48,556 nucleotides of DNA from an uncultured Mucilaginibacter sp. Its GTDB lineage: Bacteria; Bacteroidota; Bacteroidia; Sphingobacteriales; Sphingobacteriaceae. The notes beneath the pieces were generated by a model. It did no database searches. It saw only the letters and a list, made by a program, of their open reading frames with translations, and was not told the origin of the DNA. A program made the position numbers and the translations under genes. Below are positions 4,263 through 48,199 of the stretch, one piece after another (the stretch's first letter is position 1; every line of letters begins with the position of its first letter). The DNA lies in NCBI RefSeq assembly GCF_937859865.1, contig NZ_CALMAT010000076.1, positions 1 to 48,556 of the forward strand. Reading direction: 5' to 3'.

Positions 4263-5757
4263 GTGCCATTAATTTTCCTAAAGTTAGGGGGATTTGTTTT
4301 GCAACCTGCTCTGGCAAAACAACGGCTAAGTTGTTGGCAAAAGCCAGTTCATCACCAGCTTTTCCGTGCAAAAAAACACCGATAAAAGCAGCATCTTTTG
4401 GTTGATAACCTTGTGCCAACAATCCGGTAATAATTCCGGTCAAAACATCGCCCATACCGCCCGTGCCCATCGCCGGGTTTCCGGTTGGATTGAAGTAAAG
4501 CTGGCCATCGGGCGTGGCAATGATGGTGTATTGGTTCTTTAAAACAATCACGATCTTTTTTTCAACCGCTTGCTGCTTGGCCGTTTCCAGCCTTTGCCAC
4601 CAAGAGTTGTGCTCGCCAAACAGCCGGTCAAACTCTTTCATGTGCGGGGTTATGATCGAGTTTTCAGGGATCTGTTTCCACCAATTTGGGTTTTCGGAAA
4701 GCATGTTTAAAGCATCTGCATCTAAAACAAGTGTTTTTTTATAATTGGACAACAGTGCTTCCAACAATTGCACCGCATCTTTTCCTAATCCCGGCCCGGC
4801 GGCAATTACCGTAAACTTTTCCCATTCAATTTCCGGCAATTGCTTTTCCTCTCTCAAAAGAGCCATAATGTCAGGCATATAAGCGTTCAAAGCTGTTAAA
4901 CCAGGCGCCGGAATACAAGCCGTAGTTAAACCTGCGCCAACATAAACGGCAGCCGAAGAACAAAGCAAAGCCGCGCCCATGGTTTTTGCCTGTCCGGCAA
5001 TCAGCAAAGCATGGCCAAATGTTCCTTTATGTTGAAATTTTTTGCGTGGCGATACTGTTTTTACCACATCTTTTTCTTCAATCAAAAAGTAATTACTTTT
5101 GGCATTGCTTAGGAAATTTTCATCCAAACCAATATCAAGCACCACAAAATCAGCCATAAAAGAAGCAGATTCGGGTAACAAAAAATTAATTTTTGGCAAC
5201 TGGAAAGTGATAACCAAATCAGCTTTTAAAACTATAGAATTTGGGTCAACCACGCCTTCTGTAAAAAAACCAGTCGGCACATCTACGGCAATTACTTGTT
5301 TTTTGATTTGGTTTAAATGATTGACGAGATCAGCATAAGCACCACTTAACGGTTTGTTCAAGCCGCTGCCAAGCAAAGCATCAATCAAAATATCGGCATT
5401 TTCCTGCGGAAAATTTCCTGCTTCTAATTCGATAAAAGGAACTGATGCTTCTTTTAGCCTATTAAAATTGGTGTCGAAATCCGAAGTTGAACGATCTGAA
5501 AAACGCGCAATTTTCACAGCCAAATGCTGGTACTGTTCGGCTTTCAATAACCGCGCAATGGCCAAACCATCGCCGCCGTTGTTTCCCGTTCCGCAGTAAA
5601 TCGCAATCCGATTGTTTTTATCAGGAAAATGATTGCAAAAGAAGTTAACGAAAGCTTTACAGGCGCGCTCCATCAGATCAACAGAAGTGATGAGTTCTGT
5701 TTGGATGGTTTGCGCATCTGCCTCGTGCATTTGTGCGGCGGTAAGAAGTTTGAGCAT
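4249..5757 (-). CDS. nnr: Bifunctional NAD(P)H-hydrate epimerase / ADP-dependent dehydratase
   Basis: Repairs damaged, hydrated NADH and NADPH. The N-terminal YjeF epimerase domain (about residues 1-215) has GTGNNGGDGLAIARLL and the later FQLPKINFLLPES. The C-terminal ribokinase-like dehydratase domain (about 225-495) has AAGPGLGKDAVQ, VLDADALNML, ITPHMKEFDRLFG and the GNPAMGTGGMGDVLTG catalytic segment. The 502-aa length matches the fused bacterial form. Two copies of the dispersed motif lie inside the gene, at 5152-5166 (encoding part of SASFMAD) and 5445-5470 (encoding NRLKEASV). Confidence 0.95.
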   Translation of the reverse strand: MLKLLTAAQMHEADAQTIQTELITSVDLMERACKAFVNFFCNHFPDKNNRIAIYCGTGNNGGDGLAIARLLKAEQYQHLAVKIARFSDRSTSDFDTNFNRLKEASVPFIELEAGNFPQENADILIDALLGSGLNKPLSGAYADLVNHLNQIKKQVIAVDVPTGFFTEGVVDPNSIVLKADLVITFQLPKINFLLPESASFMADFVVLDIGLDENFLSNAKSNYFLIEEKDVVKTVSPRKKFQHKGTFGHALLIAGQAKTMGAALLCSSAAVYVGAGLTTACIPAPGLTALNAYMPDIMALLREEKQLPEIEWEKFTVIAAGPGLGKDAVQLLEALLSNYKKTLVLDADALNMLSENPNWWKQIPENSIITPHMKEFDRLFGEHNSWWQRLETAKQQAVEKKIVIVLKNQYTIIATPDGQLYFNPTGNPAMGTGGMGDVLTGIITGLLAQGYQPKDAAFIGVFLHGKAGDELAFANNLAVVLPEQVAKQIPLTLGKLMAQKNG

Positions 5758-5803: not shown

Positions 5804-5826
5804 ATGCTTCTTTTATCGGCATAAAT
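5804..5826 (-). repeat. Single ATGCTTCTTTTATC motif, intergenic
   Basis: A full-length single copy, ATGCTTCTTTTATCGGCATA then AAT, upstream of nnr (minus strand). It carries the extended consensus, the core followed by CGGCATAAA. The rest of the 195-bp nnr-uvrA gap shows no gene. Confidence 0.8.
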
Positions 5827-8862: not shown

Positions 8863-8906
8863 ATGCTTCTTTTACCACCCAAAATTTATAGTGCTAAAAG
8901 AAGCAT
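8863..8906. repeat. Compact inverted pair of the dispersed motif (element 2)
   Basis: ATGCTTCTTTTACCACCCAA at the left and GTGCTAAAAGAAGCAT at the right, only 44 bp end to end, just upstream of uvrA on the minus strand. The inner arms can fold into a compact hairpin. Outer GCCTGTTTAAAT arms are missing or badly decayed (CCTTGTTTGAT at about 8845). Confidence 0.8.
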
Positions 8907-14954: not shown

Positions 14955-15010
14955 ACCGATACTATTTTTAGGGTGATAAAAACAGTATGGAGGGGAAAAT
15001 TATTTCGGCA
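14863..15010 (+). repeat. purN 3'-end direct repeat, copy 1 (functional), with 30-bp hairpin
   Basis: From ACCAGTTGGAAAATATCC through the purN TGA (14952-14954) and the hairpin ATACTATTTTTAGGG / TGATAAAAACAGTAT (14959-14988), into GGAGGGGAAAATTATTT. Copies recur at about 15630 and 16637. The hairpin has near-perfect 12-bp arms of the ACAGTAT variant of the dispersed motif and probably terminates purN. Confidence 0.9.
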
Positions 15011-15629: not shown

Positions 15630-15768
15630 TTTGGAAAATATCTGTTTTAAAATCCAGCAGTTGGAGCATCAACATTACCCCAAAGTGATTGAGCAGGTGC
15701 TGAAGAAGCTGAAGTGAATCCATACTGTTTTTATAGGGGTAAAAACAGTATTTGCAAGGAAAAGGATT
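15630..15768 (+). repeat. purN 3'-end direct repeat, copy 2, with 30-bp hairpin
   Basis: TTGGAAAATATCTG onward repeats the last about 80 bp of purN almost perfectly, including the TGA stop, then the perfect hairpin ATACTGTTTTTATAG / GGGTAAAAACAGTAT (15722-15751). It has no upstream purN body, so it is a non-functional fragment. It separates the two toxin-antitoxin modules. Confidence 0.9.
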
Positions 15769-16636: not shown

Positions 16637-16779
16637 ACCAGTTGGAAAATATCCGTTTTAAAATCCAGCAGTTGGAGCATCAACATTACCCCAAAGTAAT
16701 TGAGCAGGTGCTGAAGAAGCTGATACTATTTTTAGGGTGGTAAAAACAGTATGGATGGGGAAAATGATTTTGGCAATTT
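16637..16779 (+). repeat. purN 3'-end direct repeat, copy 3, with 30-bp hairpin
   Basis: ACCAGTTGGAAAATATCC onward matches copy 1 more closely than copy 2 does, including the hairpin ATACTATTTTTAGGG / TGGTAAAAACAGTAT (16723-16752) and the following GGATGGGGAAAATGATTT. A 10-bp deletion (relative to AGTGAACCGA) has removed the purN stop codon, so this copy is a decayed fragment. Confidence 0.9.
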
Positions 16780-16783
16780 TAGG

Positions 16784-16928
16784 TGCTTGTTTAATTTTTA
16801 TTCAGAAAAAAAGCCGATACTTCTTTTACCACATAAAATTTGGTGTTGGTGTTCAGTTTTTGTAAACCAAAAACTAAATGTTTGCTAATTTTTAGGTGGT
16901 AAAAGAAGTATTGAAAATTTAAACAGAA
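16784..16928. repeat. Composite inverted-repeat element 3
   Basis: Outer left arm TGCTTGTTTAATTTT (degenerate, about 16784) and right arm ATTTAAACAGA (about 16917). Inner arms are ATACTTCTTTTACCACATAA (from 16817) and TTTAGGTGGTAAAAGAAGTA then T (to 16911). With purN copy 3 and the tetR control region it accounts for the 396-bp gap 16628-17023. Confidence 0.8.
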
Positions 16929-22308: not shown

Positions 22309-22380
22309 ATGCTTCTTTTATCCACCTAAAATCATGTTGATAAGTGTTGGACACCAATTTTACAGGCATAAAAGAAGCAT
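22309..22380. repeat. Inverted pair of the dispersed motif (element 4)
   Basis: Left ATGCTTCTTTTATCCACCTA, right TACAGGCATAAAAGAAGCAT, 72 bp end to end. A degenerate outer arm CTGGTTTAAATT is at 22279. It lies between the pump gene and the outer-membrane factor gene. Confidence 0.85.
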
Positions 22381-22408: not shown

Positions 22409-22588
22409 GCCTGTTTAAATCAATATCAGATCCTTTGACAAGTTCAGGATTAATAATTACAATGCTTCTTTTATCCTATAAAAATTGGTGTCCGCATCAA
22501 TTTTTATAGATCAAAAAACTAATTACTTATCACTTTTTAGGTGATAAAAGAAGCATCATCAATACTTATAAAATTAGTTTAAACAAGC
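22409..22588. repeat. Composite inverted-repeat element 5
   Basis: Outer arms GCCTGTTTAAAT (22409-22420) and AGTTTAAACAAGC (22576-22588). Inner arms ATGCTTCTTTTATCCTATAA (from 22462) and TTAGGTGATAAAAGAAGCAT (to 22556). The centre has AAATTGGTGTCC and AATTTTTATAG words shared with element 4. Two elements in tandem fill the 346-bp gap 22272-22617 inside the efflux operon, so they may attenuate expression of the outer-membrane gene. Confidence 0.85.
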
Positions 22589-24074: not shown

Positions 24075-24199
24075 GCCTGTTTAATATTTTATCAGATAAA
24101 GTTTCCATGCTTCTTTTATCACCTAAAAATTGGCATTGCCTGGTTTTTGGTTTGTTTAAGCTGATATAAACACCAATTTTTATAGGGTAAAAGAAGCAT
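24075..24199. repeat. Composite inverted-repeat element 6
   Basis: Outer left arm GCCTGTTTAAT (24075). Inner arms ATGCTTCTTTTATCACCTAA (from 24107) and TTTATAGGGTAAAAGAAGCA then T (to 24199), with AAATTGG and CCAATTTT words near the centre. It follows the efflux operon. The outer right arm is not clear. The gap 24043-24395 holds this element, the single motif at 24324 and the purH promoter. Confidence 0.82.
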
Positions 24200-24395: not shown

Positions 24396-25922
24396 ATGAG
24401 TCAGCCTGTTAAAATTAAAAATGCGTTAATTTCTGTTTATTATAAAGATAACCTCGAACCAATTATCCATGAATTAAACCGGTTGAATGTACAAATTTAC
24501 AGCACCGGCGGCACAGAAACTTTTATCCGAAACTTAGGTGTTAGCGTTGTTCCGGTTGAAGATTTAACTTCTTATCCTTCCATTCTCGGCGGACGCGTGA
24601 AAACATTGCACCCTAAAATTTTTGGCGGTATTTTAACCCGGCGCGAACACGAAGGCGACCAGCAGCAAATCGCAGAATACGAAATACCGGAGATTGATCT
24701 AGTTATTGTTGATCTGTATCCTTTTGAAGAAACCGTTGCTTCCGGCGCTGCTGAGGAAGATGTTGTGGAAAAGATTGACATCGGCGGCATTTCCCTCATC
24801 CGCGCAGCCGCAAAAAACTTTAAAGACGTAACGATCATGGCTTCAAAAAACGATTACAACGAACTTGAAAATATCCTGAAAACACAAAACGGAGAAACTA
24901 CTTTGGCACAACGTAAAGCGTTTGCACGTAAGGCTTTCCATATTTCTTCGCATTACGATTCGGCCATTTTTAACTACTTTAACCGCGAAGAACCACTGCA
25001 AATTTTTAAACAAAGCATCGAACCGGCGCAAACGCTGCGTTATGGCGAAAACCCACACCAGCAAGGTATTTTTTATGGTGATTTGAACCAGCTTTTTGAT
25101 AAGTTAGGCGGAAAAGAACTTTCGTACAACAATTTGGTGGATGTGGATGCCGCCGTTGCTTTGATTGATGAGTTTGAAGAACCAACCGTTGCCATTTTAA
25201 AACACACCAACGCCTGCGGAATTGCCAGTAAAAACAGCATTTCCGAAGCTTGGGAAGCTGCATTGGCCTGCGATCCGGTTTCTGCTTTTGGCGGCGTGAT
25301 TATTACCAACGGCGAAGTGGATGCGGCAACGGCAACAGAAATCAGCAAATTATTTTTTGAAGTTTTAATTGCGCCAGCATACCAGGAAGACGCGGTTAAA
25401 ATCTTAACTTCAAAAAAAAATAGGATTATTTTGCTGCGTAAACCAATTGGGCTTCCGTCTAAATTATTTAAAACACTTTTAAATGGCGTAATCGAGCAGG
25501 ACAAAGATTTGGTGATTGAAGGCCCGCAACAAATGCAAACCGTTACCGAAGTAAAACCGACGGAACAAGAGTTAAAAGATTTATTTTTTGCCAATAAAGT
25601 TGTAAAACATACCAAATCAAACACAATTGTACTGGCTAAAAACAGTATGCTGATTGCCAGCGGTGTTGGCCAGACTTCGCGTGTTGACGCTTTAAAACAA
25701 GCCATTGTGAAGGCTGAAACTTTTGGTTTTGATTTACAAAGTTCTGTGATGGCTTCGGATGCGTTTTTTCCTTTTCCGGATTGTGTGGAAATTGCAGCCG
25801 ATGCAGGGATTTCGGCCATTTTACAACCCGGCGGCTCTATCAAAGACCAGGATTCGATTCAAATGGCCAATCAAAAGCACATTGCAATGGTAACTACCGG
25901 CGTACGTCATTTTAAACATTAA
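24396..25922 (+). CDS. purH: Bifunctional AICAR transformylase / IMP cyclohydrolase
   Basis: Last two steps of purine synthesis to IMP. The N-terminal MGS-like cyclohydrolase domain has QIYSTGGTETFIRNLG, EDLTSYPSILGGRVKTLHPKIFGGIL and DLYPFEETV. The C-terminal transformylase has LRYGENPHQQGIFYG, AILKHTNACGIA, SAFGGVIITNGEVD and SDAFFPFPDCVEIAADAGISAILQPGGS. It has 508 aa from ATG 24396, and the TTG at 24375 lies inside the promoter. The window also holds purN, but 10 kb away. Confidence 0.97.
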   Translation: MSQPVKIKNALISVYYKDNLEPIIHELNRLNVQIYSTGGTETFIRNLGVSVVPVEDLTSYPSILGGRVKTLHPKIFGGILTRREHEGDQQQIAEYEIPEIDLVIVDLYPFEETVASGAAEEDVVEKIDIGGISLIRAAAKNFKDVTIMASKNDYNELENILKTQNGETTLAQRKAFARKAFHISSHYDSAIFNYFNREEPLQIFKQSIEPAQTLRYGENPHQQGIFYGDLNQLFDKLGGKELSYNNLVDVDAAVALIDEFEEPTVAILKHTNACGIASKNSISEAWEAALACDPVSAFGGVIITNGEVDAATATEISKLFFEVLIAPAYQEDAVKILTSKKNRIILLRKPIGLPSKLFKTLLNGVIEQDKDLVIEGPQQMQTVTEVKPTEQELKDLFFANKVVKHTKSNTIVLAKNSMLIASGVGQTSRVDALKQAIVKAETFGFDLQSSVMASDAFFPFPDCVEIAADAGISAILQPGGSIKDQDSIQMANQKHIAMVTTGVRHFKH

Positions 25923-27095: not shown

Positions 27096-27923
27096 ATGCG
27101 TAACCTCCTGATTTTTATTTCGAAGTACAACGCATTTTTTTTGTTTATCATTTTTGAAGTTTCTTCCCTGGTTATTTTTGTAAAGTACAACAACTTTCAA
27201 AAAGCTACTTTTATCAGTTCATCAAATGAAGTAATCGGCAATATTTACCTTAAAGCAGACCAAATTACCGATTACTTTAAACTCGGCATCACCAATGATA
27301 GTTTGGCCAGGGAAAACGCCCGTTTGCGCAACCAGTTGAAGTCTTCTTTTTATGTTGATTCTTCCTCGGTAAAAACAGTAACGGATACCATTTACAAACA
27401 GCAGTACACTTACATTGCAGCCAGGGTTATCAACAATTCTTTTAACCGGAGGAACAATTACCTCACCATCAACCGTGGCAGCAATGCCGGAATCACCAAA
27501 GGGATGGGCGTGATTTCCAGTTCGGGCGTGGTTGGCATCGTTATCAATACCGGCCCTAATTTATCAACCGTGCAATCACTGCTGCACGAAAATACCCGCA
27601 TCAGTGCCATGCTTGCCGATTCTAACAATGTTGGTTCTTTAATTTGGGACAATAACCTCGACCCTACCAAAGCCATGCTGATTAACATCATGAAGCAGGT
27701 TAAAATTAAAGTGGGGATGCCTGTGGTTACGTCCGGTTACTCGCTTTTCCCGGAAGGGACGATGCTTGGTCATATCAGCCGTTTGGATGCCAAAAACAGC
27801 AGCAACGTAACCGGTTTTGAGGTCAACCTTTCCGTCAATTTTAGCAACCTGCAATACATTTATGTGGTTACTAACAAATTGGCACAAGAACAAGAAGCAT
27901 TGGAGGCGCAGGAAAAGCAATGA
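27096..27923 (+). CDS. mreC: Rod-shape-determining protein MreC
   Basis: A 275-aa bitopic membrane protein of the elongasome. One N-terminal transmembrane helix (about residues 8-30) is followed by a coiled-coil (NDSLARENARLRNQLKSS). The beta-rich MreC domain contains NYLTINRGSNAGITKGMGVIS, GVVGIVINTGPNLSTVQSLL and KVGMPVVTSGYSLFPEG. It contacts PBP2 in the periplasm (family knowledge). The stop overlaps the mreD start by 4 nt. Confidence 0.95.
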   Translation: MRNLLIFISKYNAFFLFIIFEVSSLVIFVKYNNFQKATFISSSNEVIGNIYLKADQITDYFKLGITNDSLARENARLRNQLKSSFYVDSSSVKTVTDTIYKQQYTYIAARVINNSFNRRNNYLTINRGSNAGITKGMGVISSSGVVGIVINTGPNLSTVQSLLHENTRISAMLADSNNVGSLIWDNNLDPTKAMLINIMKQVKIKVGMPVVTSGYSLFPEGTMLGHISRLDAKNSSNVTGFEVNLSVNFSNLQYIYVVTNKLAQEQEALEAQEKQ

Positions 27924-33409: not shown

Positions 33410-33486
33410 ATGCTTCTTTTATGCCTATAAATTCTGTTTTGATAAAACACAATCAGCCAATGATTTTTATGCGGTAAAAGAAGCAT
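33410..33486. repeat. Inverted pair of the dispersed motif (element 7)
   Basis: ATGCTTCTTTTATGCCTATA at the left and TTTATGCGGTAAAAGAAGCA then T at the right, 77 bp end to end, between the convergent tdk and DUF2383 genes. It is placed as a shared terminator would be. Outer arms are decayed (GGTTTAAAG / CCTTAAACTTT). Confidence 0.82.
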
Positions 33487-34048: not shown

Positions 34049-34208
34049 AGCCTGTTTTAATTTTGTTCAATATGTTTCCTATGCTTCTTTTAGCACCTAA
34101 AAATCATTGTTCTTTTGTAATATTTTGTACCGGTACAATATTAAACACAAAATTTATGGGCATAAAAGAAGCATTATAAATTTTTACGGCACAAGTTTAA
34201 ACAGGCTC
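34049..34208. repeat. Composite inverted-repeat element 8
   Basis: Outer arms GAGCCTGTTTTAAT (from 34049) and TTTAAACAGGCTC (34196-34208), complementary apart from one base. Inner arms ATGCTTCTTTTAGCACCTAA (from 34081) and TTTATGGGCATAAAAGAAGC then AT (to 34174). The centre has the palindrome TTGTACCGGTACAA. The right edge abuts a truncated gene remnant. Confidence 0.87.
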
Positions 34209-34365: not shown

Positions 34366-34494
34366 ACCTGTTTAAATTTATATCATAAAAATTTTACAAT
34401 GCTTCTTTTATGCCTATAAACTTGGTATATCCGAATATTTTAAGGGCACAAAAACCACAAAAAGACAATGATTTTTATGTGGTAAAAGAAGCAT
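34366..34494. repeat. Composite inverted-repeat element 9
   Basis: Outer left arm ACCTGTTTAAAT (34366-34377). Inner arms ATGCTTCTTTTATGCCTATA (from 34399) and TTTATGTGGTAAAAGAAGCA then T (to 34494). It lies just upstream of the Uma2 gene and, read in frame, would falsely extend that gene (MPINLVY...VVKEALV). Elements 8 and 9 bracket the transporter remnant. Confidence 0.83.
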
Positions 34495-35141: not shown

Positions 35142-35795
35142 ATGGAAAACCAACCAATAGTTCGTTTAAACTTCACCTGCAACCGCAACTGGGAAGATAT
35201 GCAACCAGTTGAAAACGGCCGTTTTTGCAACGATTGCCAGAAAAAAGTTGTTGATTTTACCGATAAAACGAACGAGGAAATTGCTGCTTATTTGATAAGT
35301 AGTGCCACTTTAGTTTGCGGCCGTTTTCAAAATACACAACTTGCTCCTGCTGCTCCAAAACCTATTTGGAAACGCTGGTTTTCTACCGCTGCCATGTTTG
35401 TTGCTGTTTTTATAGGGGTAAAAGAAGCATCGGCACAGCAACAAATACCAATAAAAAGTGCAGATTCTGTTAAAGCACCTACACGTGTGGTTATGGGTGA
35501 AGTGGCTGTAATAAGTAAAAACGCCCAGTTTCCCGGTGGCGAAGTAGCGCTTCGAAGCTACTTGGATAAAAACGTTCGTTCTGTTAATAATGTAAAGGGA
35601 AAAGTTGTAACTACGTTTATTGTAGAAAAAGATGGCTCTTTAACAGATATTAAAGTTATCGAGGGGCTTAGTAAAGAAGCTGATGAGGAAGCGATAAGGG
35701 TTTTGAAAGAAAGCCCTAAATGGCTTCCTATGGTTCTATATAATGGTGTTGCGGTAAGGCACGGTTATACCTTGCCAATTAGTTTTTCAAAGTAA
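35142..35795 (+). CDS. TonB C-terminal domain protein with zinc-finger-like N-terminus
   Basis: A 217-aa protein. The N-terminus has CNRNWEDMQPVENGRFCNDCQKKVVDFTDKTNEEI, a Cys-rich segment (CNDC) seen in many Bacteroidetes TonB-like membrane proteins. One transmembrane segment lies at about 77-97 (WFSTAAMFVAVFIGVKEASAQ). The C-terminal about 95 residues are a TonB-type domain (AQFPGGEVALRSYLDKNV, GKVVTTFIVEKDGSLTDIKVIEGLSKEADEEAIRVLKESPKW). It probably couples inner-membrane energy or signals to an outer-membrane partner. The dispersed motif at 35411-35431 encodes IGVKEAS at the membrane exit. Confidence 0.85.
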   Translation: MENQPIVRLNFTCNRNWEDMQPVENGRFCNDCQKKVVDFTDKTNEEIAAYLISSATLVCGRFQNTQLAPAAPKPIWKRWFSTAAMFVAVFIGVKEASAQQQIPIKSADSVKAPTRVVMGEVAVISKNAQFPGGEVALRSYLDKNVRSVNNVKGKVVTTFIVEKDGSLTDIKVIEGLSKEADEEAIRVLKESPKWLPMVLYNGVAVRHGYTLPISFSK

Positions 35796-35810: not shown

Positions 35811-37946
35811 CTAAACAGCGGCCTCCGGCTCCAACCAATTCCCATCCGTTTTAATAATCCCAATCAATTCATCCAAAGCCAAAGCAGAAGAAACGTTTTT
35901 CTTCACCACTTCTTTGCCGCGGTAAAGGGTAATTTTATCCGGGCCTGCACCTACATAACCATAATCCGCATCCGCCATTTCGCCCGGGCCGTTTACAATA
36001 CAGCCCATGATCCCGATTTTTAAACCTTTGAGATGCGAAGTGCGGCTGCGGATCATTTGCGTGGTGATTTGCAGATCAAACAAAGTACGGCCACAGCTTG
36101 GGCACGAAATATATTCGGTTTTGGAAATCCGCGAACGCGTAGCCTGCAAAATTCCAAAAGCGGTGGAAGTGATTGTTTTGGAAGGGATTTCCGGCGCATC
36201 AATCCAAATGCCATCACCAAAACCATCTACCAATAAAGCACCTAAATCAGTGGCGGCGTAAAGCTGGAGGAGGGTAGTAGGATCAGAAGATTGGTGAACG
36301 GGGTGCGAGGCCGAAAGCTGATAGCTGATAGCTGATAGTTCATTGCCGATTGCCAATGGCTGATAGCTGATAGCTGATAGCTGATAGCTCCTCCGCACAA
36401 TCACCGGCACGTCAATACCATTTTTTTGCAGGTAAAAGAAGCATGCACGCTGATCGGCCATGCCATGGTTTTCGTTTGTTTCCAAAATAAAAACTAAGGT
36501 TTGATCAGCTGCAATTTGTTCAAAAGCTTCGGTTTGCAAATCGCTGTTTTTGATCCTGACTAAATTTAGCGCCGCATCTTTTTCTGCAGAAACATGGTAT
36601 TCATCCAATGTAAAAACCGGATGGCAATTCTTATTATCGGTTAAAAACTGCCAGGTTTTATAATTGTATAACTGTTTGAGATTGCCAGGAAAAGCAAAAG
36701 AAGGCAGTTCGTCAGCCAGATAAACAAAATCTACCGACTGATCGGCCATGTTGTATTTATCCAGTAACGGAGAATATAAATAGCCTGCATCTGCCAAAAT
36801 AGAAGGGTCTTTTAAGTTTCTGGCCGAAAGATCAAGCACCACGCGCGGCACCATGTGTCCGCCGATAAAAGCATTGGCTTCGTAGGTTTCGCGTTTTTTG
36901 TATTCGTAGGGAGAGTGAGAAAAGTGCGGAGAAGATAGAGCGGAGAGCGGATTTGCAAGTTCAATCTTATGGCTGCGCTCCTCGTTCTTTGCTCCAAATG
37001 CTGTGTTTGCTTTTCCTAGCTCCTCTTTCCCCGCTCCCCGCTCCAAATACCGCTGAACAAGTGCTATCGCAACCGGCGCTTCAAATTCCGGTTCTTCGGT
37101 TAACGAAACGCGAACGGTATCACCCAAACCATCTTCCAGCAAAGTACCAATGCCAACGGCAGATTTAATGCGTCCGTCTTCGCCGTCGCCGGCTTCGGTT
37201 ACGCCCAAATGCAGCGGGTAGTTCATGCCTTCGGCCACCATTGTTTCTACCAGCATCCGGTAAGCCTGCACCATCACCTGCGGGTTGCTGGATTTCATGG
37301 AGATCACCAAATTGTAGTAATTCAGACTTTCGCACATGCGGATAAATTCCATGGCCGATTCCACCATGCCGCGTGGCGTATCGCCGTACTGGCTCATAAT
37401 CCGGTCCGAAAGCGAACCGTGGTTGGTGCCGATGCGCATTGCCGTGCCGTATTCTTTGCAGATGTTTACCAGCGGCGTAAACTTTTTGAAGATGCGTTCC
37501 AGTTCATTCTGATATTCTGCCTGCGTATAAACCAGTTCGTCAAAGCGTTTTTTATCGGCATAATTTCCGGGGTTAATGCGCACTTTTTCTACAATGCGCG
37601 CCGCAACTTCGGCCGCATTTGGGGTAAAGTGGATATCAGCCACCAAAGGCACGTTGTAACCTTTTTGGCGCAACTGCTTTTTTATTTCGGCCAGGTTTTG
37701 TGCTTCTTTAACGCTTGGCGCGGTGATGCGGACGTATTCGCAGCCGGCTTCTACCATACGGATGGTTTGCGCTACAGTTCCGGCAGTGTCCATCGTATCG
37801 GTAGTGGTCATGCTTTGGATACGGATCGGATTGTTACCACCCATCGGCACATCACCAATCGTTACTTCGCGGGTTAACCAGCGGGAATACGTGTTTAAAG
37901 AATTGCAATAGCGGCCAGGCAAAGCTTTGATGGTTTCAGCGTTCAT
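35811..37946 (-). CDS. ispG: (E)-4-hydroxy-3-methylbut-2-enyl-diphosphate synthase, insert-containing, with repeat-derived segments
   Basis: MEP-pathway iron-sulfur enzyme converting MEcPP to HMBPP. The N-terminal TIM barrel has VTIGDVPMGGNNPIRIQSMTTTDTMDT and VADIHFTPNAA. A large central insert (about residues 300-570) is typical of the long Bacteroidetes/plant/Chlamydia form. The C-terminal cluster domain has CPSCGRTLFDLQ and IGIMGCIVNGPGEMADADYG. At 711 aa it is longer than I would expect for the family. Two stretches are unusual: 36262-36400 encodes repeated SYQLSAI units from a DNA microsatellite, and 36890-37050 encodes a low-complexity Ser/Ala/Glu segment. The frame stays open. A dispersed motif is at 36428-36444. 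Confidence 0.95.
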   Translation of the reverse strand: MNAETIKALPGRYCNSLNTYSRWLTREVTIGDVPMGGNNPIRIQSMTTTDTMDTAGTVAQTIRMVEAGCEYVRITAPSVKEAQNLAEIKKQLRQKGYNVPLVADIHFTPNAAEVAARIVEKVRINPGNYADKKRFDELVYTQAEYQNELERIFKKFTPLVNICKEYGTAMRIGTNHGSLSDRIMSQYGDTPRGMVESAMEFIRMCESLNYYNLVISMKSSNPQVMVQAYRMLVETMVAEGMNYPLHLGVTEAGDGEDGRIKSAVGIGTLLEDGLGDTVRVSLTEEPEFEAPVAIALVQRYLERGAGKEELGKANTAFGAKNEERSHKIELANPLSALSSPHFSHSPYEYKKRETYEANAFIGGHMVPRVVLDLSARNLKDPSILADAGYLYSPLLDKYNMADQSVDFVYLADELPSFAFPGNLKQLYNYKTWQFLTDNKNCHPVFTLDEYHVSAEKDAALNLVRIKNSDLQTEAFEQIAADQTLVFILETNENHGMADQRACFFYLQKNGIDVPVIVRRSYQLSAISYQPLAIGNELSAISYQLSASHPVHQSSDPTTLLQLYAATDLGALLVDGFGDGIWIDAPEIPSKTITSTAFGILQATRSRISKTEYISCPSCGRTLFDLQITTQMIRSRTSHLKGLKIGIMGCIVNGPGEMADADYGYVGAGPDKITLYRGKEVVKKNVSSALALDELIGIIKTDGNWLEPEAAV
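36311..36390. repeat. TGATAGC heptamer-type tandem repeat inside ispG
   Basis: Runs of CTGATAG/TAGCTGA (seven-base period) around 36317-36338 and 36358-36388, with an intervening GATTGCCAATGGC. The same words occur in the intergenic stretch 937-1027. On the coding strand they give repeated SYQLSAI peptides. Confidence 0.85.
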
Positions 37947-38279: not shown

Positions 38280-38558
38280 ATGTATGAAATTCGTTTTCGG
38301 CTTGAGGCTTACGTAGATTTGGAAGAAATAGAATCCTATTACAGCGAAATTTCTTTGTCTATTGTAAGTATGTTTTTCAAAGAGTTTTCTAAAACATTAA
38401 ACTTTATTGAGCGGCAACCAAATATTTTTCAAGAACGATATAGAAAAATAAGAATTGCTCATTTATATAAATTTCCTTACGGAATACATTACAAAATCAC
38501 AGGCAATGTAGTTAGCGTTTACAGAATTTTGCACACGAAAAGGTATTTTAAGCAATGA
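38280..38558 (+). CDS. RelE/ParE-family toxin, module 3
   Basis: A 92-aa protein with the ParE/RelE layout: MYEIRFRLEAYVDLEEIESYYSEIS at the start, FIERQPNIFQERYRKIRIAHLYKFPYGIHYKITGNVVSVYRILHTKR at the end (the RxxxxxxFPYxIxY core and terminal VYRILHTKR). Whether it poisons gyrase or cleaves mRNA cannot be told. It is unrelated in sequence to the RelE-like toxin at 15249. Confidence 0.87.
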   Translation: MYEIRFRLEAYVDLEEIESYYSEISLSIVSMFFKEFSKTLNFIERQPNIFQERYRKIRIAHLYKFPYGIHYKITGNVVSVYRILHTKRYFKQ

Positions 38559-38580
38559 CAATTTCAGGATGAATACTTAT

Positions 38581-38603
38581 TTTATGCCGATAAAAGAAGC
38601 ATC
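38581..38603 (+). repeat. Single GATAAAAGAAGCAT motif, intergenic
   Basis: TTTATGCCGATAAAAGAAGC then ATC, between the toxin stop and the convergent histidine kinase. It is nearly identical over 22 bp to the intragenic copy at 44723-44747. Confidence 0.82.
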
Positions 38604-38616
38604 AGGCTGATTATGC

Positions 38617-39819
38617 TTACTTCCGGATCGTAAACTGAAAAGTAGTGCCTTCGTTTAAAGCAGATTCAACACAAATTTGTCCGCCTAAACTATCCACCAA
38701 ATTTTTTACAGTAGATAAGCCAATGCCCGAACCTCTTTTGTTGTAACGATCACGGCTGTTCAGCGTGGTCATCGGTTCAAAAATCCGCACATAATTTTTT
38801 TGCTCGATGCCAACGCCGTTATCGCTGATTCTGAATTGGTAGCAATCGGCTTTTTCTTCAAAAGTTAAACGGATAAAACCGGCATCTTTATCATTGTAAC
38901 GCACGGCATTGTTAAGCAAATTGATCAGGATTTGCTCCAAAGCAATGGCCGAAGTACGGATGTACAGTAAATCCTTGGGCGTTTCTACCCGAAAAGAATC
39001 CGGGATAGAAACCAATTTTAAAACCTCTTGGATCAGGTCGTTCAAACAAATCTCATCTTTTTTTTGCGCCAATGTTTTGTACGATTTGGAATACTCCAGC
39101 ATCTGGTTTAAAAACTTGAGCAAACTGCTGGCCGAACTGTTTACAATATCGAGCATTTGGTTGCCTTTCTCGTCCAATTGGCTGTGGTACTTGGCTTTAA
39201 GCAACTGTCCGGTCAGCATAATGCTGGTCAGCGGGCTTTTAATATCGTGCGAGGCCATCAGCGCAAAACGCTCTAAATACTCGTTAGATTTTTGTAGTTC
39301 TAAAGCAAGCGTGTTCAGTTCTTTTACTTTAAGGCGTAATTCTAACTGGGCCATCACCTGGTTGGCCAAAGTTTTTAAAGCATCAATCTGGTTAGCGGTT
39401 AATTCTTTTGGCTTGTTATCAATCACACATAATGTGCCTAAAGCATGGCCTTCCTGGTTTACCAAAGGCACGCCGGTATAAAAAACCACTTTCGGGTGGC
39501 CAGTGGTTAAAGGGTTATTTTGAAAACGCTTATCTTTTGTGGCATCATGCACCACAAAAACTTTATCAGGTTCTAAAATGGCGTGTGCACAAAAAGCGTA
39601 TTCTTTTGGTGTCTCAGTTGCATCTAATCCAAAGCGCGATTTAAACCATTGCCTTTCCGCATCTACAAAACTAATTAAGGAAATCGGTGTGTTGCAAATC
39701 TCGGAAGCCAGGCGGGTGATATCATCATAATCCTTTTGTGGTAAACTATCCAGAATTTCGTAAGAGTCGAGCGCTTTTAAACGGTCTTCCTCATTTTCTG
39801 TTAAATGTGCTACCATCAT
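38617..39819 (-). CDS. GAF-domain sensor histidine kinase
   Basis: A 400-aa soluble kinase with no membrane segment. Residues about 15-165 form a GAF domain (ITRLASEICNTPISLISFVDAERQWFKSRFG, YAFCAHAI, TLCVIDNKP). A short coiled coil leads to HisKA with phospho-His191 (LMASHDIKSPLTS), then HATPase_c with N-box LINLLNNAVRY and G-boxes ISDNGVGIEQ and GSGIGLSTVKNLVD. The cognate regulator is not adjacent. Alternative Met codons at 39840 and 39816 leave the start slightly uncertain. Confidence 0.92.
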   Translation of the reverse strand: MMVAHLTENEEDRLKALDSYEILDSLPQKDYDDITRLASEICNTPISLISFVDAERQWFKSRFGLDATETPKEYAFCAHAILEPDKVFVVHDATKDKRFQNNPLTTGHPKVVFYTGVPLVNQEGHALGTLCVIDNKPKELTANQIDALKTLANQVMAQLELRLKVKELNTLALELQKSNEYLERFALMASHDIKSPLTSIMLTGQLLKAKYHSQLDEKGNQMLDIVNSSASSLLKFLNQMLEYSKSYKTLAQKKDEICLNDLIQEVLKLVSIPDSFRVETPKDLLYIRTSAIALEQILINLLNNAVRYNDKDAGFIRLTFEEKADCYQFRISDNGVGIEQKNYVRIFEPMTTLNSRDRYNKRGSGIGLSTVKNLVDSLGGQICVESALNEGTTFQFTIRK

Positions 39820-39889
39820 AAAATTAAAAATTTGATGCAATAATAGTACATAAAATATGTGTAAATTGTAAACTTTATAATACTAAGTT

Positions 39890-39910
39890 TTATGCGGTAA
39901 AAACAGTACC
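39890..39910 (+). repeat. Single GGTAAAAACAGTA motif (ACAGTAT variant), intergenic
   Basis: TTTTATGCGGTAAAAACAGT then A, between the kinase and DUF4159 genes. Confidence 0.65.
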
Positions 39911-40579: not shown

Positions 40580-40602
40580 ATGCTTCTTTTATCGGCATAA
40601 AT
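40580..40602 (-). repeat. Single ATGCTTCTTTTATC motif in the divergent DUF4159/moxR region
   Basis: ATGCTTCTTTTATCGGCATA then AAT, essentially identical to the copy at 5804. Confidence 0.8.
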
Positions 40603-41711: not shown

Positions 41712-41734
41712 ATACTGTTTTTATCGGTATAAAT
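41712..41734 (-). repeat. Single ATACTGTTTTTATC motif (ACAGTAT variant) between moxR and DUF58
   Basis: ATACTGTTTTTATCGGTATA then AAT. It fills most of the 35-bp gap and has the same architecture as the ATGCTTCTTTTATC-CGGCATAAAT copies, with the core changed. Confidence 0.72.
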
Positions 41735-42727: not shown

Positions 42728-44260
42728 ATGCTCCAACTATTAAACCCTTTATGGCTTTGGGCGATGGCCGCAATCAGCATCGCGGTGCTTATCCATTTGT
42801 GGCATATCAAAACCGGCAAAACGCTTAGAATCGGCAGTATTGCTTTGCTGGGCGAAAGTGCACGGCAAAGTTCGCGCAGTTTCCGCATCAACGATTGGCT
42901 GCTGCTGCTTTTACGCTGCCTTTTATTGATCGTGCTTTCACTTTTACTCACGCAACCTTTCTGGCAAGAACAAGCGCAGCAAACTAAAGCAAAAGGTTGG
43001 ATTTTAGTCGAAAAAGAACCGATAAAAGAAGTATATGCACATTTTAAAACGCAAATAGATTCGTTGCTGAAAGCCGGTTACCAGTTGCACCAGTTGGATA
43101 CTTCTTTTAAGGCCATTAATTTGCAACAGGTTTTGAACGATACTTCTAAAACAGCAAAAAGCTACACAAAACCCCGCTCCTACTGGCCGTTGCTAACCTT
43201 ATTGGAACAGCAAATCCCTCAAAAAACGCCAACATACTTATTTACCTCAAACCAGTTGCAACATTTCCGCGGTGCAAAACCAGCGTTAAATTCAGATTTG
43301 CATTGGAAAACTTACACGCCTGCCGATTCTGTTGCTACCTGGATCCAAAACGCCTTTTTAACTTCCAAAGACAGCATTCGGTTAATTTTGGGCGAAAGCA
43401 AACCTGCCGGTACTTCTTTTAGCACCATAAATTTGCAATCCACAGATCGTGGAAATTCTCGTTTTAACGTTTCGTTTGAGGAAGGAAAACCGGTTGTTTC
43501 TTTAAAAAACAAGCCGCAAAATTTGGTTTTGGTGGATACTTCAACCTTAAAAATTACGGTTTATCAAAACCAGAATCCAACTGATGCCGCTTATTTAAAC
43601 GCTGCGCTACAATCGGTAAAAAGGTTTACGGGCAGGAAAATGAAGATCACAACGGCCAGCAGTTTCAACCAAATCCCAGAAAATCAGAATTGGATTTTCT
43701 GGTTATCCAGCCAAAGTTTTCCTTTAAATTCTTCCAAATTAGTTGCTGGCGGAAGTGTTTTTGAATATGAAAACGGCAAAACGCAAGCCATCAATTCCTG
43801 GATTAATAATGAAAACCTGAACGATCCGATCAATTTGTATCAACAAATTTTACCTGATAAAAGAAGCATTGCTGCAACAACAGAAAATGTTTGGCAAAAC
43901 GGTTTTGGACAATCAGTTTTAAGCAGACAAAACGTTGGAAACAAAAACATTTATCGCTTTTACAGTCGCTTTAACTTAGGTTGGAACGATTTGGTTTGGA
44001 GCAGCGATTTCCCGAAACTGATCTTAAATTTACTGTTGAAAAGCTATCCGCAGCGTAATTTTGAAGCTTTTGATAAGCGGAAAATTGCAGCAAATCAGCA
44101 GCAAATTGTAACGGCAACAAATGAAAACCCGGCAAAGCAAATCAGTCAGCCAAAAGATTTAACAGATTTAAAACACGCCTTTTGGATCGCGTTATTCATC
44201 GTGTTTTTGTTGGAAAGAATCCTTGCGTTGCAAACAAAAAAAGAATCGAATTATGCCTGA
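42728..44260 (+). CDS. BatA N-terminal-domain membrane protein
   Basis: A 510-aa protein. The first about 85 residues (LLNPLWLWAMAAISIAVLIHLWHIKTGKTLRIGSIALL, then INDWLLLLLRCLLLIVLSLLLTQPFW) match the aerotolerance BatA N-terminal domain with two membrane helices. A long periplasmic region follows, then a final helix near the C-terminus (HAFWIALFIVFLLERILAL). Four dispersed motifs are inside: 43018 (EPIKEVY), 43099 (DTSFKAI), 43410 (GTSFSTI) and 43848 (LPDKRSI). Role: envelope stress or periplasmic complex of the MoxR operon (inferred). Confidence 0.87.
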   Translation: MLQLLNPLWLWAMAAISIAVLIHLWHIKTGKTLRIGSIALLGESARQSSRSFRINDWLLLLLRCLLLIVLSLLLTQPFWQEQAQQTKAKGWILVEKEPIKEVYAHFKTQIDSLLKAGYQLHQLDTSFKAINLQQVLNDTSKTAKSYTKPRSYWPLLTLLEQQIPQKTPTYLFTSNQLQHFRGAKPALNSDLHWKTYTPADSVATWIQNAFLTSKDSIRLILGESKPAGTSFSTINLQSTDRGNSRFNVSFEEGKPVVSLKNKPQNLVLVDTSTLKITVYQNQNPTDAAYLNAALQSVKRFTGRKMKITTASSFNQIPENQNWIFWLSSQSFPLNSSKLVAGGSVFEYENGKTQAINSWINNENLNDPINLYQQILPDKRSIAATTENVWQNGFGQSVLSRQNVGNKNIYRFYSRFNLGWNDLVWSSDFPKLILNLLLKSYPQRNFEAFDKRKIAANQQQIVTATNENPAKQISQPKDLTDLKHAFWIALFIVFLLERILALQTKKESNYA

Positions 44261-46406
44261 AGCGAACGGAAAATACATCATCAGCAACTGGCAAAAAAAG
44301 TGGGCGCGCAGCAATTTGTTTGCGCTTGTTTTGCTGGCTTTATCGGCGGCACTGTTTTTAACCACACTTTTTCACGTTGTTTTTTCGGCGCCGTTTTGGC
44401 TCGTAATTCCGCTGTTTTTATTGCTGGTTTCGGTTTTGTTTTTTACGGGTTCTTTGTGGAAAATCAGCATTCCAAATGTAGCGCGTTTCCTCAATTCGTA
44501 TTTTCCGGAGTTGGAAGAAAGCAGCGAATTGACGCTAAAACCAACCGAATCGCTTAATTTGTTAGAACGTTTGCAGCGGCAAAAAGTAGAACATATTTTG
44601 CCGGAATTGCCTCAACCTAAAGAATTTGACAGGCGGTTAAAAACAGCTTCCGTCATCTTTTTAATTTCGTTAATCATCAGTTTTTTGCTGGCGAAATTGC
44701 CGTTCAGTTTTCGGCGCGCGCATTTTATGCCGATAAAAGAAGCATTCAACGGAACGAAATCTTCTGCCAAACCGGAAGTGATTTTGCCGGAAATCGAACG
44801 TTTCATCCTAAAAATTACGCCTCCTGCTTACACCGGAAAAGGCAATCGCGAGCAGGAAAAGTTTACCATCTCGGCAGAAGACGGCGCAACCGTAAGCTGG
44901 GAAATCAACACGAATAAAGCGGTAAAACAGGTGAGTTTGATTTTTAACGATCATGAAAAATTAGACTTAAAAGCAGCAAATGTAGAACATACTTTATGGA
45001 AAATTGCAAAAGAAATCCACAATCCTGGCTTTTATCAGGTGAATCTGGACGGCAAAATTTCGGAGTTATACCAGGTTGAAGTGATTAAAGATTTGCCTCC
45101 TGTCATTCGCATACAATCGCCCAAACCAAGTACCGTAATTGATTTTGGCGAGCCACAAAAAACCCTGCTAAAAACAGCATTGAGCGACGATTACGGCATC
45201 AGCGAAGCGTATATCAACGCCACGATTGCCAGCGGAAGTGGCGAAGCAGTAAAATTTAAAGAGCAAAAAATCAGTTTTGAGGCGGCTTTTAACGGACATC
45301 AAACGCAATATCAACTGCAAAAAACGCTGGATTTAAAGGCTTTGGGGATGCAACCGGGCGACGAACTGTATTTTTATATCCAAGCAACCGATAACCATCG
45401 GCAGGAAACGCGCTCGGAAGTTTACATCGTTTCCATCGCTGATACGGCTAAACTGATGCAAATGGAAGGTATGGCAAACAGTTTGGATGTGAAGCCGGAA
45501 TTGTTCAGGAGCGAGCGGCAAATCATCATCGAAACCGAACAATTGCTGCACGAAAAAGACACGATCAAGGTGGAAGAATTTAAAAAACGAAGCAACAATT
45601 TGGGTTTCGACCAAAAGTTGCTGCGGCTGCGTTACGGCAAGTTTTTGGGCGAAGAAAATGAATCGAACATCGGCGACCCGGAAGCGGAAGGGGAAACTTC
45701 TTTATCCAACCCAAAAGATTTCAGCAATGCCGCCAAAATTTTGGATGCTTACACCGACAAGCACGACAATGCCGAAGATGCCGGTTTTTTAACCCCGGAA
45801 ACCAAAAACCAGTTGAAAGCAACGCTGAACGAAATGTGGAGCGCCGAGCTTCGTTTGCGCACGTACAAACCACAGGAAGCTTTGCCTTTTGCCTACAAAG
45901 CGTTGCGTTTGCTGAAGGATTTGCAGCAAAAATCGCGTGCTTACGTGGCCAAAACCAGCGCGAAAATTGCGCCTTTAAAACCGGCAGAAAAAAGGCTGAC
46001 CGGCGATCTGACCAAAATTATTGATCCGGTAAACCAGCAGGATTTTAAAAAACCAACCGATCCAAATTTAGCTTTGCGGCAATCAGCTACGTTGTTGCAT
46101 CAGCTTAAAAACGGAACTGGTTTGGGCGCAAGCTCGCAGCAAATTTTAAGGCAAACTAACTTGCAATTAAGCAGCAAAGCGGCGGCGCAACCTTCGGTTT
46201 ATTTGTCGGCGGTAACTGCTTTTCGTAAGATTTTGGCGCAAATCAATCAGCCAAAAAACATTCGCGAAAAAGATATTTTGACAGTCGAAAAAGCGATACA
46301 AAAAATGCTGCCGCCTGTTGCCAAACTGCCGCAACCAACCACAACCAACCTGGATTTAGGTTTGGCCAGCTCCTATTTTAAAAACTTAAACCGCACAAAC
46401 CAATAA
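44253..46406 (+). CDS. Large membrane-anchored protein, DUF4175-like
   Basis: A 717-aa protein with two N-terminal membrane helices (about 20-65), a third at about 130-150 and a long periplasmic part. The latter has beta-rich segments (ERFILKITPPAYTGKG, PPVIRIQSPKPSTVIDFGEPQKTLLKTALSDDYGISEAYI) and helical, charged segments. The SDDYGI-type repeat is like that of DUF4175 proteins; the assignment is tentative. ATG 44253 overlaps the previous stop (ATGCCTGA) and is preferred over 44223. One dispersed motif (44723-44747) encodes FMPIKEAFN, just after a membrane helix. Confidence 0.8.
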   Translation: MPEANGKYIISNWQKKWARSNLFALVLLALSAALFLTTLFHVVFSAPFWLVIPLFLLLVSVLFFTGSLWKISIPNVARFLNSYFPELEESSELTLKPTESLNLLERLQRQKVEHILPELPQPKEFDRRLKTASVIFLISLIISFLLAKLPFSFRRAHFMPIKEAFNGTKSSAKPEVILPEIERFILKITPPAYTGKGNREQEKFTISAEDGATVSWEINTNKAVKQVSLIFNDHEKLDLKAANVEHTLWKIAKEIHNPGFYQVNLDGKISELYQVEVIKDLPPVIRIQSPKPSTVIDFGEPQKTLLKTALSDDYGISEAYINATIASGSGEAVKFKEQKISFEAAFNGHQTQYQLQKTLDLKALGMQPGDELYFYIQATDNHRQETRSEVYIVSIADTAKLMQMEGMANSLDVKPELFRSERQIIIETEQLLHEKDTIKVEEFKKRSNNLGFDQKLLRLRYGKFLGEENESNIGDPEAEGETSLSNPKDFSNAAKILDAYTDKHDNAEDAGFLTPETKNQLKATLNEMWSAELRLRTYKPQEALPFAYKALRLLKDLQQKSRAYVAKTSAKIAPLKPAEKRLTGDLTKIIDPVNQQDFKKPTDPNLALRQSATLLHQLKNGTGLGASSQQILRQTNLQLSSKAAAQPSVYLSAVTAFRKILAQINQPKNIREKDILTVEKAIQKMLPPVAKLPQPTTTNLDLGLASSYFKNLNRTNQ

Positions 46407-46408
46407 CG

Positions 46409-48199
46409 ATGGCCTGGAATATTGCGGTAATTGCCATTTCTGTTTTGCTGCTGGCTTTTTTGCTTTGGAAAGAGATCGGCCGGAAAAATAAAGCGCATTT
46501 AATTTGGCGTTTAGCGGCTTCGGTTTTGGCAGTTGTTAGTTTGGTTTGTTTGGCCATTCCGCCATTTTATCATGGTAAAAGAAGCATCAATACAAACCAG
46601 GAAATTGTGTTGCTGACAGAAGGTTTTAACCAAGACAGTTTGAACAAATACCAAAGTTTTGCTCCGGTTTTTACGGCTGAACCGGCGATTTATCAAACGT
46701 TAAAATCTTCCAAAATTCGCTTTTTAACAGATTTGGATTTAAATGAAAGTGCATCTCTCAGAAATAAAACTTTACATATTTTAGGTTTTGGTTTGAAGGA
46801 AGACGAACTGAAAGAACTTCAAAATTTCCCAATCAGTTTTAATCCGAATGAATTACCTGCCGGCATCCAAAAAATCAATTGGACAAACCGCTTGAAAGCC
46901 GGTGAAAGTTTTCGGGTCCAGGGAAATTTTCTCAACAAAAGCAATGGCGAAATCAAACTAATTTTAAAAGGTTTGAATACCAGTTTGGATTCCATAAAAA
47001 TTGGTGCTAAAAGAAGCATGTCGTTTTCGTTTCAAACAATTCCGAAAGAAAGCGGACGAGCCGTTTTTGAGTTGCTGGTGCTTGCGGGAAAAGATACGGT
47101 GGAAAACGAAGCATTGCCGCTGGCGATTGAACCGCAGGAAAAACTGAAAGTATTAATGCTTTCGGCTGCGCCGGATTTTGAAAGCCGCTTTTTAAAAAAC
47201 TGGCTGGCCGAAAATGCTTATGAAGTTGCGGCAAGAAGCACCATCAGCAAGAATAAAAACACAACCGGTTTTGCGAATTTGGAAAAGTTTCCGTTGGAGA
47301 AAATCACGTCTTCGCTGCTTCAAAAATTTGATGTTTTGGTTACCGATGCCATTGAATTTGGCAATTTAAGCAAACCGGAAACTTCCGCAATTTTAACGCA
47401 GGTGAATGCAAAAGGAATGGGTTTAATTATCCGTGCCGACAGTGTTAACAATGCTTCTTTTATCGGTAAAAATTTTGCCTTGTACCAGCCAAACAATCCG
47501 CCAAAAGAACTGCATTTGAAGCTGAATGATGTTGTGGGAACGCGTTTAAAAATCCAAAGCGAGCATCCGGCTTTTATCCGAAATCAACCTAACACACAAA
47601 ATTTAGTGCAAGACGAAGCGGCGCACGTGTTGGTCAGCAGCAAGTTGTACGGTTCGGGCAAGCTGGTTTTATCAACTTTAAATAATACTTTTAGCTGGCA
47701 GCTTTCGGGCAAACAAAAGGATTACAGTGCGTTTTGGTCGGAGTTGTTATCCAAAGCGGCGCAAAAAACCAGCCGAAAGGAAAATGTTTATACTGAAATT
47801 TATGCCGATAAAAACAGTATGACGAAAGTTTACCTGGAAACTGCCGACCGGAACTTAACGCTAAAAGTGAACGGGCAAACACTGCTGCTCAGTCAAAATC
47901 CTTCAATTCCGTTTTTGCAGGAAGCTACGTTTTGGCCGGAACGTTCGGGCTGGTTTCCAATCTCCACCCAAAACAACACGACCGACTGGGTTTATATTTT
48001 TGAAAACATGAGTTGGAAAACTGTAAAAGCTGCGGAGAAAATCAGAAGAACGCGGCAATACGCGCGGCAATTTTCGGCAAAGCAGCAAAACAGCCAACAT
48101 CAGCAAAAAGAAGAGCTGGTTTTTGTTCCGCCTCTGTGGTTTTACCTGTTGTTTTTACTTTCCTGCACTTTTTTGTGGGTTGAAACAAAATTGTTATAA
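46409..48199 (+). CDS. Membrane protein of the MoxR/BatA operon, unknown function
   Basis: A 596-aa protein with two N-terminal membrane helices (NIAVIAISVLLLAFLLW and IWRLAASVLAVVSLVCLAI), a large periplasmic region and one C-terminal helix (WFYLLFLLSCTFLWVETKLL). The topology is like the BatA-like protein two genes upstream. It starts 2 bp after the previous stop. Four dispersed motifs are in frame: 46566 (HGKRSIN), 46994 (IGAKRSMS), 47451 (NASFIGKN) and the ACAGTAT variant 47800 (YADKNSM). Not recognised beyond the context. Confidence 0.78.
   Translation: MAWNIAVIAISVLLLAFLLWKEIGRKNKAHLIWRLAASVLAVVSLVCLAIPPFYHGKRSINTNQEIVLLTEGFNQDSLNKYQSFAPVFTAEPAIYQTLKSSKIRFLTDLDLNESASLRNKTLHILGFGLKEDELKELQNFPISFNPNELPAGIQKINWTNRLKAGESFRVQGNFLNKSNGEIKLILKGLNTSLDSIKIGAKRSMSFSFQTIPKESGRAVFELLVLAGKDTVENEALPLAIEPQEKLKVLMLSAAPDFESRFLKNWLAENAYEVAARSTISKNKNTTGFANLEKFPLEKITSSLLQKFDVLVTDAIEFGNLSKPETSAILTQVNAKGMGLIIRADSVNNASFIGKNFALYQPNNPPKELHLKLNDVVGTRLKIQSEHPAFIRNQPNTQNLVQDEAAHVLVSSKLYGSGKLVLSTLNNTFSWQLSGKQKDYSAFWSELLSKAAQKTSRKENVYTEIYADKNSMTKVYLETADRNLTLKVNGQTLLLSQNPSIPFLQEATFWPERSGWFPISTQNNTTDWVYIFENMSWKTVKAAEKIRRTRQYARQFSAKQQNSQHQQKEELVFVPPLWFYLLFLLSCTFLWVETKLL

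Follow-up and report, generated by a model that had tools for sequence, protein, structure and literature searches.

A 24-bp block, ATTTTATGCCGATAAAAGAAGCAT, which is present in identical form in a gene and in an intergenic gap of the analyzed window (the whole stretch of 48,556 nucleotides from an uncultured Mucilaginibacter sp.), represents two copies of a genus-specific DNA signal that, by analogy with the USS and DUS of other bacteria, is probably a DNA uptake sequence.

The matching pair belongs to a dispersed motif family

Direct comparison of both copies placed the identical block at 44722-44745 (+; core 44734-44745) and at 38579-38602 (+; core 38591-38602). The former encodes HFMPIKEAF in a DUF4175-family gene (44223-46406, +; PF13779, E=3.2e-11), and the latter is flanked by ORF calls at 38280-38558 (+) and 38617-39840 (-). 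The first-pass annotation had assigned the copies to a DUF4175-like gene and a non-coding gap, and both positions were confirmed, as was the identity of the copies, while the reported length of 22 bp fell short of the actual 24 bp. The pair is not special, and its members are two among thousands of copies.

The copies of this dispersed family share the core TAAAAGAAGCAT, which is preceded by an A/T tract. An alignment of 56 sites on [TC]AAAAGAAG[CT] showed this tract at about -13 to -7, a G at -2, the core at 0 to +11, and little signal beyond, and the 365 sites of a 447-kb host sample had the same architecture. As is evident from the sequence itself, the motif is non-palindromic. The 19-mer TTTATGCCGATAAAAGAAG was found in the window in 4 exact copies and 19 times at up to three mismatches, with an expectation of 0.09 in 100 dinucleotide shuffles; exact copies detected by this 19-mer search lie at 5807-5825 (-) and 40583-40601 (-).

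The core TAAAAGAAG[CT] has 50 copies in the window. A BatA-domain gene carries the core at 43023-43034 (+, EPIKEVY), 43098-43109 (-), 43410-43421 (-, GTSFS), and 43858-43869 (+, PDKRSI, in a gappy loop), and a 596-aa gene carries it at 46576-46587 (+, with the core not kept in the congener G001), 47008-47019 (+, GAKRSM), and 47451-47462 (-, NASFI). At 36433-36444 (+), the core lies antisense in a GcpE-family gene (ACFFYL), at a site that was gapless in 6/6 outgroup alignments. The remaining core copies start at 577+, 5157+, 5445-, 10183+, 10261-, 12583+, 13338-, 13506+, 13751+, 13844-, 21220-, 24324-, 27024+, 28040-, 30164-, 31699+, 32260+, 32371-, 35419+, and 38006+.

The signal is abundant in one genus

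The host genome holds 2,624 copies of the pattern TAAAAGAAGYAT (1,331 + 1,293 by strand), compared to 5 (3 + 2) for a reversed-pattern control. Two other genomes of the genus contain 2,321 and 1,644 copies, and the reversed pattern was found 2-5 times in the genus genomes. The maximum was 17 copies among 148 other genomes of the family and 27 among 394 further genomes from a phylum sample of 395, in which the control reaches 20; the family and phylum samples overlap, as ten family genomes are in both. Among the genomes searched, the pattern is thus abundant only in the three genomes of the host's genus (3/3). As other loci named Mucilaginibacter contain 0-2 core copies each, the signal marks a clade inside the NCBI-named Mucilaginibacter. 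The copies are spaced no more evenly than random (CV 0.92, 0.97, and 1.66). A chance origin of the motif was ruled out by the window shuffles, the reversed control, and the synonymous shuffles described below, and a viral origin was rejected, with 0 exact matches of an extended pattern in the viral contigs.

Motif-poor stretches were also inspected. In contig C1 of the congener G002, the region 59.6-119 kb contains 2 copies (both versions of the motif counted) in 59 kb, compared to 184 in the other 207 kb, which is the part of this contig stretch outside a wider motif-poor block of 72.5 kb. Ten proteins scanned from this block included a TrwC relaxase, two integrases, ArdC, HsdM, and a lanthipeptide dehydratase. 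As a side aspect, G002:C1 at about 48-120 kb (L182-L186) is a mobile island with relaxase, integrase, ArdC, HsdM, and lanthipeptide genes. The scarcity of DUS in integrated mobile elements has been reported (PMC7371117). Of the three long motif-free gaps examined in G001, one corresponds to the core gene sprA and the other two to a polysaccharide and a type III restriction locus, so that a lack of motif copies does not point to foreign DNA alone.

Motif copies in genes follow the DNA and not the peptide

Motif copies occur in both orientations and in genes as well as gaps, with a higher density in gaps: of the 365 host copies, 207 are intergenic, 138 fall within ORF calls, and 20 straddle an ORF boundary, with the crude ORF calls covering 87% of the bases in this sample. 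The coding copies use five of the six gene frames, on both strands, and in the sixth the motif would read a stop. In 100 synonymous shuffles, 15.8±3.9 coding copies (maximum 25) were obtained in place of the 138 observed, and the reversed pattern gave 7.

Orthologues were compared for 175 host genes against 1.46 Mb of G001 and for 124 against 0.52 Mb of G002, both of which are partial samples. G001 appears to be Mucilaginibacter arboris HMF7410 (the genome of locus L010), and G002 appears to be a lichen metagenome genome (that of locus L009), as the coordinates of their matches agree with those in the genomes of these loci. In G001, the core was kept in 58 of 80 coding copies, not kept in 21, and unaligned in 1, and in G002, it was kept in 40 of 51, not kept in 8, and unaligned in 3. 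Where the residue was the same, 248/265 core codons were identical in G001, compared to an expectation of 180.5 derived from these codons elsewhere, and same-residue codon identity outside the core was 59.8%; the corresponding values for G002 were 162/170, 117.3, and 60.7%. By position, given where enough codons were counted, synonymous identity in G001 was 0.85-1.0 at -12 to -8 and 0.82-1.0 at 0 to +10, dropping to about 0.75 at -5 to -3, with a background of 0.63. This synonymous footprint of about -13 to +12, with its dip, fits a bipartite DNA signal. Due to the excess over synonymous shuffles and the identity of core codons between species, the conclusion that the DNA of the motif is held constant is well supported by these sequence comparisons.

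The first-pass annotation had drawn the same conclusion from the pair. The orthologue comparison that it had suggested at the 44722 site showed TAAAAGAAGCATT exact in both congeners, with differing flanking codons; the peptides read HFMPIKEAF in the window, HFTSIKEAL in L009, and HFNPVKEAF in L010. As K-E-A is also retained, this single site cannot separate DNA from peptide, and the claim that the DNA itself stays constant is therefore supported by the motif family and not by one pair. The opposite pattern of a kept peptide with varying DNA was not observed, in view of the 248/265 identical core codons in G001.

Regardless of whether the core was kept, 75/79 aligned coding copies in G001 had no gap within 10 residues. 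At nine sites (36-48 kb of the window), the exact core was never found in outgroup orthologues that were scored without a core gap. Six of these sites were mostly gapless within 8 residues (6/6, 33/37, 32/37, 24/38, 29/35, and 29/36 outgroup alignments), whereas three were gappy, with 0/38, 10/57, and 2/34 alignments gapless within 8 residues. The 10/57 refers to the 44722 site, which lies in a variable loop with gaps in relatives outside the genus. As the outgroup lacks the exact core and six of nine sites are mostly gapless, several coding copies look like the product of point substitutions in existing codons, and others, including the 44722 copy, are located in permissive loops. DUS and USS have likewise been reported in permissive regions (PMC2397512).

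The signal has altered the proteins of the genus. The tetrapeptide VKEA was found 25 times in the host sample, compared to 2.8 expected by composition (8.9x), 66 times in the G001 sample compared to 8.0 (8.3x), and 21 times in the G002 sample compared to 3.1 (6.9x), whereas two outgroup samples had 2 compared to 3.3 (0.6x) and 2 compared to 2.4 (0.8x). KEA, KRS, and ASF are also enriched in proteins of the genus.

A second version of the motif coexists with the first

A second version, TAAAAACAGYAT, coexists in the host genome with 856 copies, giving 3,480 copies of both versions together in 3.98 Mb. The pattern TAAAAACAG[CT]AT has 856, 714, and 786 copies in the three genus genomes and at most 25 in the 57 other genomes searched. 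With the looser pattern TAAAAACAG[CT]A, 596 copies were found in 2.43 Mb, with the same upstream architecture as the first version. The 13 window copies of this pattern lie at 5052-5063 (-), 14977-14988 (+), 15722-15733 (-), 15740-15751 (+), 16741-16752 (+), 25229-25240 (+), 25637-25648 (+), 27370-27381 (+), 35401-35412 (-), 39898-39909 (+), 41712-41723 (-), 45169-45180 (+, in the DUF4175 gene), and 47809-47820 (+).

The bases at +5/+6 were GA in 1,326 cases, AC in 432, AA in 91, and GC in 36. Intermediates are thus rare, as independence of the two positions gives expectations of 393 for AA and 338 for GC. The upstream architecture was present at 49% of AA sites, compared to a background of 5%, and AA intermediates may therefore be partly functional. 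Direct swaps of one version for the other were seen in six orthologue comparisons (4 with G001 and 2 with G002, possibly representing fewer distinct sites). Host copies of the second version comprise 84 coding, 44 intergenic, and 7 partial cases, which is opposite to the placement of the first version. Conservation of the second version looks lower (30/53 and 19/36), counted with a looser pattern.

Uptake of self-DNA as the preferred reading

If the motif is an uptake sequence, naturally competent cells would carry a receptor, at the surface or in the periplasm, that binds double-stranded DNA via the core T-AAAA-GA/AC-AG-Y-AT and via the A/T tract, which lies upstream by about one turn. Signal-bearing DNA would be taken up more often, pass ComEC, and be recombined by DprA/RecA, and uptake bias together with recombination would accumulate and preserve copies wherever proteins tolerate them. 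We infer that the genus is competent and prefers signal-bearing DNA for uptake, and likewise which protein may read the signal. In favor of this reading are the abundance of the motif, its restriction to the genus, its near-equal use of both strands, the excess and conservation of the coding copies, their apparent origin by substitution, the VKEA enrichment, the low copy number in the one mobile island, and the presence of ComEC, DprA, and HHH proteins.

The two known systems resemble the present one in several aspects. The USS of Pasteurellaceae, such as Haemophilus influenzae, also have a core with flanking A/T tracts, a similar density, and copies on both strands in coding and intergenic regions (PMC7811141, PMC1939737), but they are unrelated in sequence and phylum; moreover, in the genus studied here T2SSE stays below the cut-off, the A/T tract is mainly upstream, and uptake is putative. 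The density of 3,480 copies in 3.98 Mb is on the order of that in H. influenzae and N. meningitidis, for which 1,465 and 1,892 signal copies were reported (PMC7811141). The DUS of Neisseriaceae share genus-level specificity and strong conservation in permissive regions (PMC2397512). They also share the existence of dialects, two of which are held at once by Simonsiella muelleri, and the many dyad pairs, with paired signals being numerous in Neisseriaceae as well (PMC3630211). They differ in sequence, their receptor ComP is a pilin, and the versions described here differ by two adjacent bases with rare intermediates.

Within the Bacteroidota, Riemerella provides a precedent. R. columbina favors self-DNA (PMC7965970), ComEC and DprA are essential in R. 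anatipestifer (PMC7965970, PMC8459023), and transformation was reported to depend on ComEC, DprA, an HHH protein, and outer-membrane factors, with no pilus factor among the essential genes named in that report (PMC8459023). According to these reports (PMC8459023, PMC7965970), a pilus-independent uptake route thus exists in this phylum. Riemerella differs in that the putative signals described there are only A/T-rich short k-mers (PMC7965970), and the three genus genomes all lack DUF5689, a domain found in a surface factor that Riemerella requires for transformation.

ComEC, DprA, and HHH_3 (ComEA-like) proteins are encoded in all three genus genomes and are equally common in motif-free relatives, so that nothing found singles out the genus as receptor-bearing. 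T2SSE, the ATPase of type II secretion and type IV pilus systems and the only pilus component profiled, had no match above the cut-off in the three genomes; a sub-threshold match in G002 falls within the TrwC helicase. The genus therefore seems to lack the pilus-based route that both known systems use. Further points against uptake are that the copies are spaced no more evenly than random, that the motif-free gaps include sprA, and that many intergenic copies belong to MITE-like doublets.

In 9/9 loci examined, a protein of about 680 residues is encoded beside comEC. A profile search against solved structures matched the N-terminal part of this protein to ComEA (8dss, E=0.0013), while the copy of the host genus alone gave a non-significant ComEA match (E=0.099) and no Pfam match. 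The idea that the genus has no comEC-adjacent helix-hairpin-helix protein was wrong, as the protein is present under the Pfam cut-off. The remainder of the protein has no stretch resembling a transmembrane helix, contains 18% aromatic residues, ends with Phe in 9/9 cases, and shows a weak two-residue periodicity (0.307 compared to 0.269±0.020), which makes a beta-barrel a reasonable guess for this part.

Some further observations were made at these loci. At L206:9717-13888, the neighbor of comEC encodes an HHH protein that is ComEA-like and has a C-terminal part resembling a barrel. At L209:6658-7455 and its orthologues, a protein of about 265 residues without a Pfam match is encoded beside the HHH gene in 5/6 outgroup loci examined, and it had no match in the three genus loci. 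The three genus genomes (G000-G002) lack the HHH_3 match that is strongest in most relatives, where it lies in frames of about 710-780 residues.

Taken as a whole, the fuller picture, which we propose only tentatively, would be a pilus-independent Bacteroidota uptake system with its own uptake sequence in two coexisting dialects (GA/AC at +5/+6), possibly read by the comEC-adjacent outer-membrane protein with its ComEA-like HHH part and predicted beta-barrel; its signal would have arisen within one genus and rewritten the proteome (VKEA about 7-9x). A function for the motif was not found in the literature among the matches listed. A crude 9-mer scan of outgroup loci for other dialects flagged L013, L021, L047, L050, L054, and L068, of which the first five were inspected. 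L021 and L054 have 8-9 scattered copies in which an extended motif was not clear. The other three show local or tandem repeats, namely clustered palindromic repeats in L013, tandem TTCGTAATT units in L047, and a CRISPR-like array in L050.

Alternative explanations

Instead of being recognized during uptake, the motif could act inside the cell as a binding site of a nucleoid, repair, recombination, or self-recognition protein, comparable to Chi or HIP1, with copies gained by mutation and kept by selection. This is the strongest of the alternatives, if an unlikely one, as any strong drive at the DNA level gives the same abundance, conservation, and footprint, and as neither a pilus ATPase nor a genus-specific uptake gene was found. 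However, by strand totals and not by replichore, the strands are used near-equally (1,331/1,293 in the genome and 120/134, without bias, along one 397-kb contig), which looks unlike the orientation-dependent Chi and KOPS. Known Chi sites are also smaller than a 12-bp core plus an A/T tract, a signal that occurs here at 0.9 per kb. HIP1 of cyanobacteria is likewise very abundant, located in coding regions, and described as unsettled in its role, but it is an 8-bp palindrome tied to methyltransferases (PMC4390886), whereas the present motif is non-palindromic and has an A/T tract.

The paired arrangement of many copies raises the question of a mobile element of the MITE or REPIN type, with the motif as its terminal repeats and single copies as its remains. 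Outward-facing inverted doublets 28-100 bp apart were found 43, 101, and 19 times in samples of the three genus genomes (163 in total), with a spacing of often 80-84 bp in the host. In the window, inverted doublets lie in intergenic positions at 1496-1592, 16817-16911, 22309-22380, 22462-22556, 24107-24199, 33410-33486, and 34081-34174, as well as at 8863-8906 with a 32-bp spacing and at 34399-34494 with the right copy inside an ORF call. With the motif masked, 89/163 doublets still matched another doublet. The doublet end sequence TTTAAACAGGCTY occurs 88 times in the host, 18 and 14 times in the congeners, and 0-13 times elsewhere, and some doublets are missing as a whole block from syntenic gaps. 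From these three aspects, a MITE-like element appears to carry part of the intergenic copies, and inverted doublets of about 94 bp with a common outer sequence, as known from MITEs and REPINs, make up a subset here. The coding copies, in contrast, are single and mostly in gapless alignments: 75/79 had no gap within 10 residues in G001, outgroup alignments were mostly gapless at 6/9 sites, and the coding footprint stops at about -13 and +12. A mobile element is therefore refuted for the gapless coding copies, retained for some doublets, and improbable as the whole explanation.

Even less probable is a role as transcription terminator, promoter, or RNA signal. Copies are indeed densest in convergent gaps (6.0 per kb, compared to 3.8 in co-directional and 2.6 in divergent gaps), and hairpins could form from some of the close inverted pairs, but neither orientation with respect to genes prevails (58 same and 69 opposite in co-directional gaps; 77 and 61 within genes), 138/365 copies are inside genes, and Rfam gave no window match at gathering thresholds. 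Finally, peptide-level selection or codon bias, with K-E-A, K-R-S, and A-S-F coded alike, would agree with the enrichment of KEA, KRS, and ASF, but it is refuted by the synonymous shuffles and the codon-matched conservation, as well as by the use of five reading frames on both strands and the 207/365 copies in gaps, and retains a negligible probability.

Meaning of the signal for the genus

Sequence-specific uptake of self-DNA has been described for two proteobacterial families (PMC7811141). If our preferred reading as an uptake sequence is true, the present signal would be a third origin, located in a phylum whose transformation involves no recognizable pilus genes, and it would provide an independent test of how uptake signals arise, how recombination spreads them, and how they reshape proteins. 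As a public genome exists for the named strain M. arboris HMF7410, the uptake idea is directly testable. Even if uptake turned out to be wrong, one genus still carries some 3,500 copies of a complex signal, put there by a strong drive at the DNA level.
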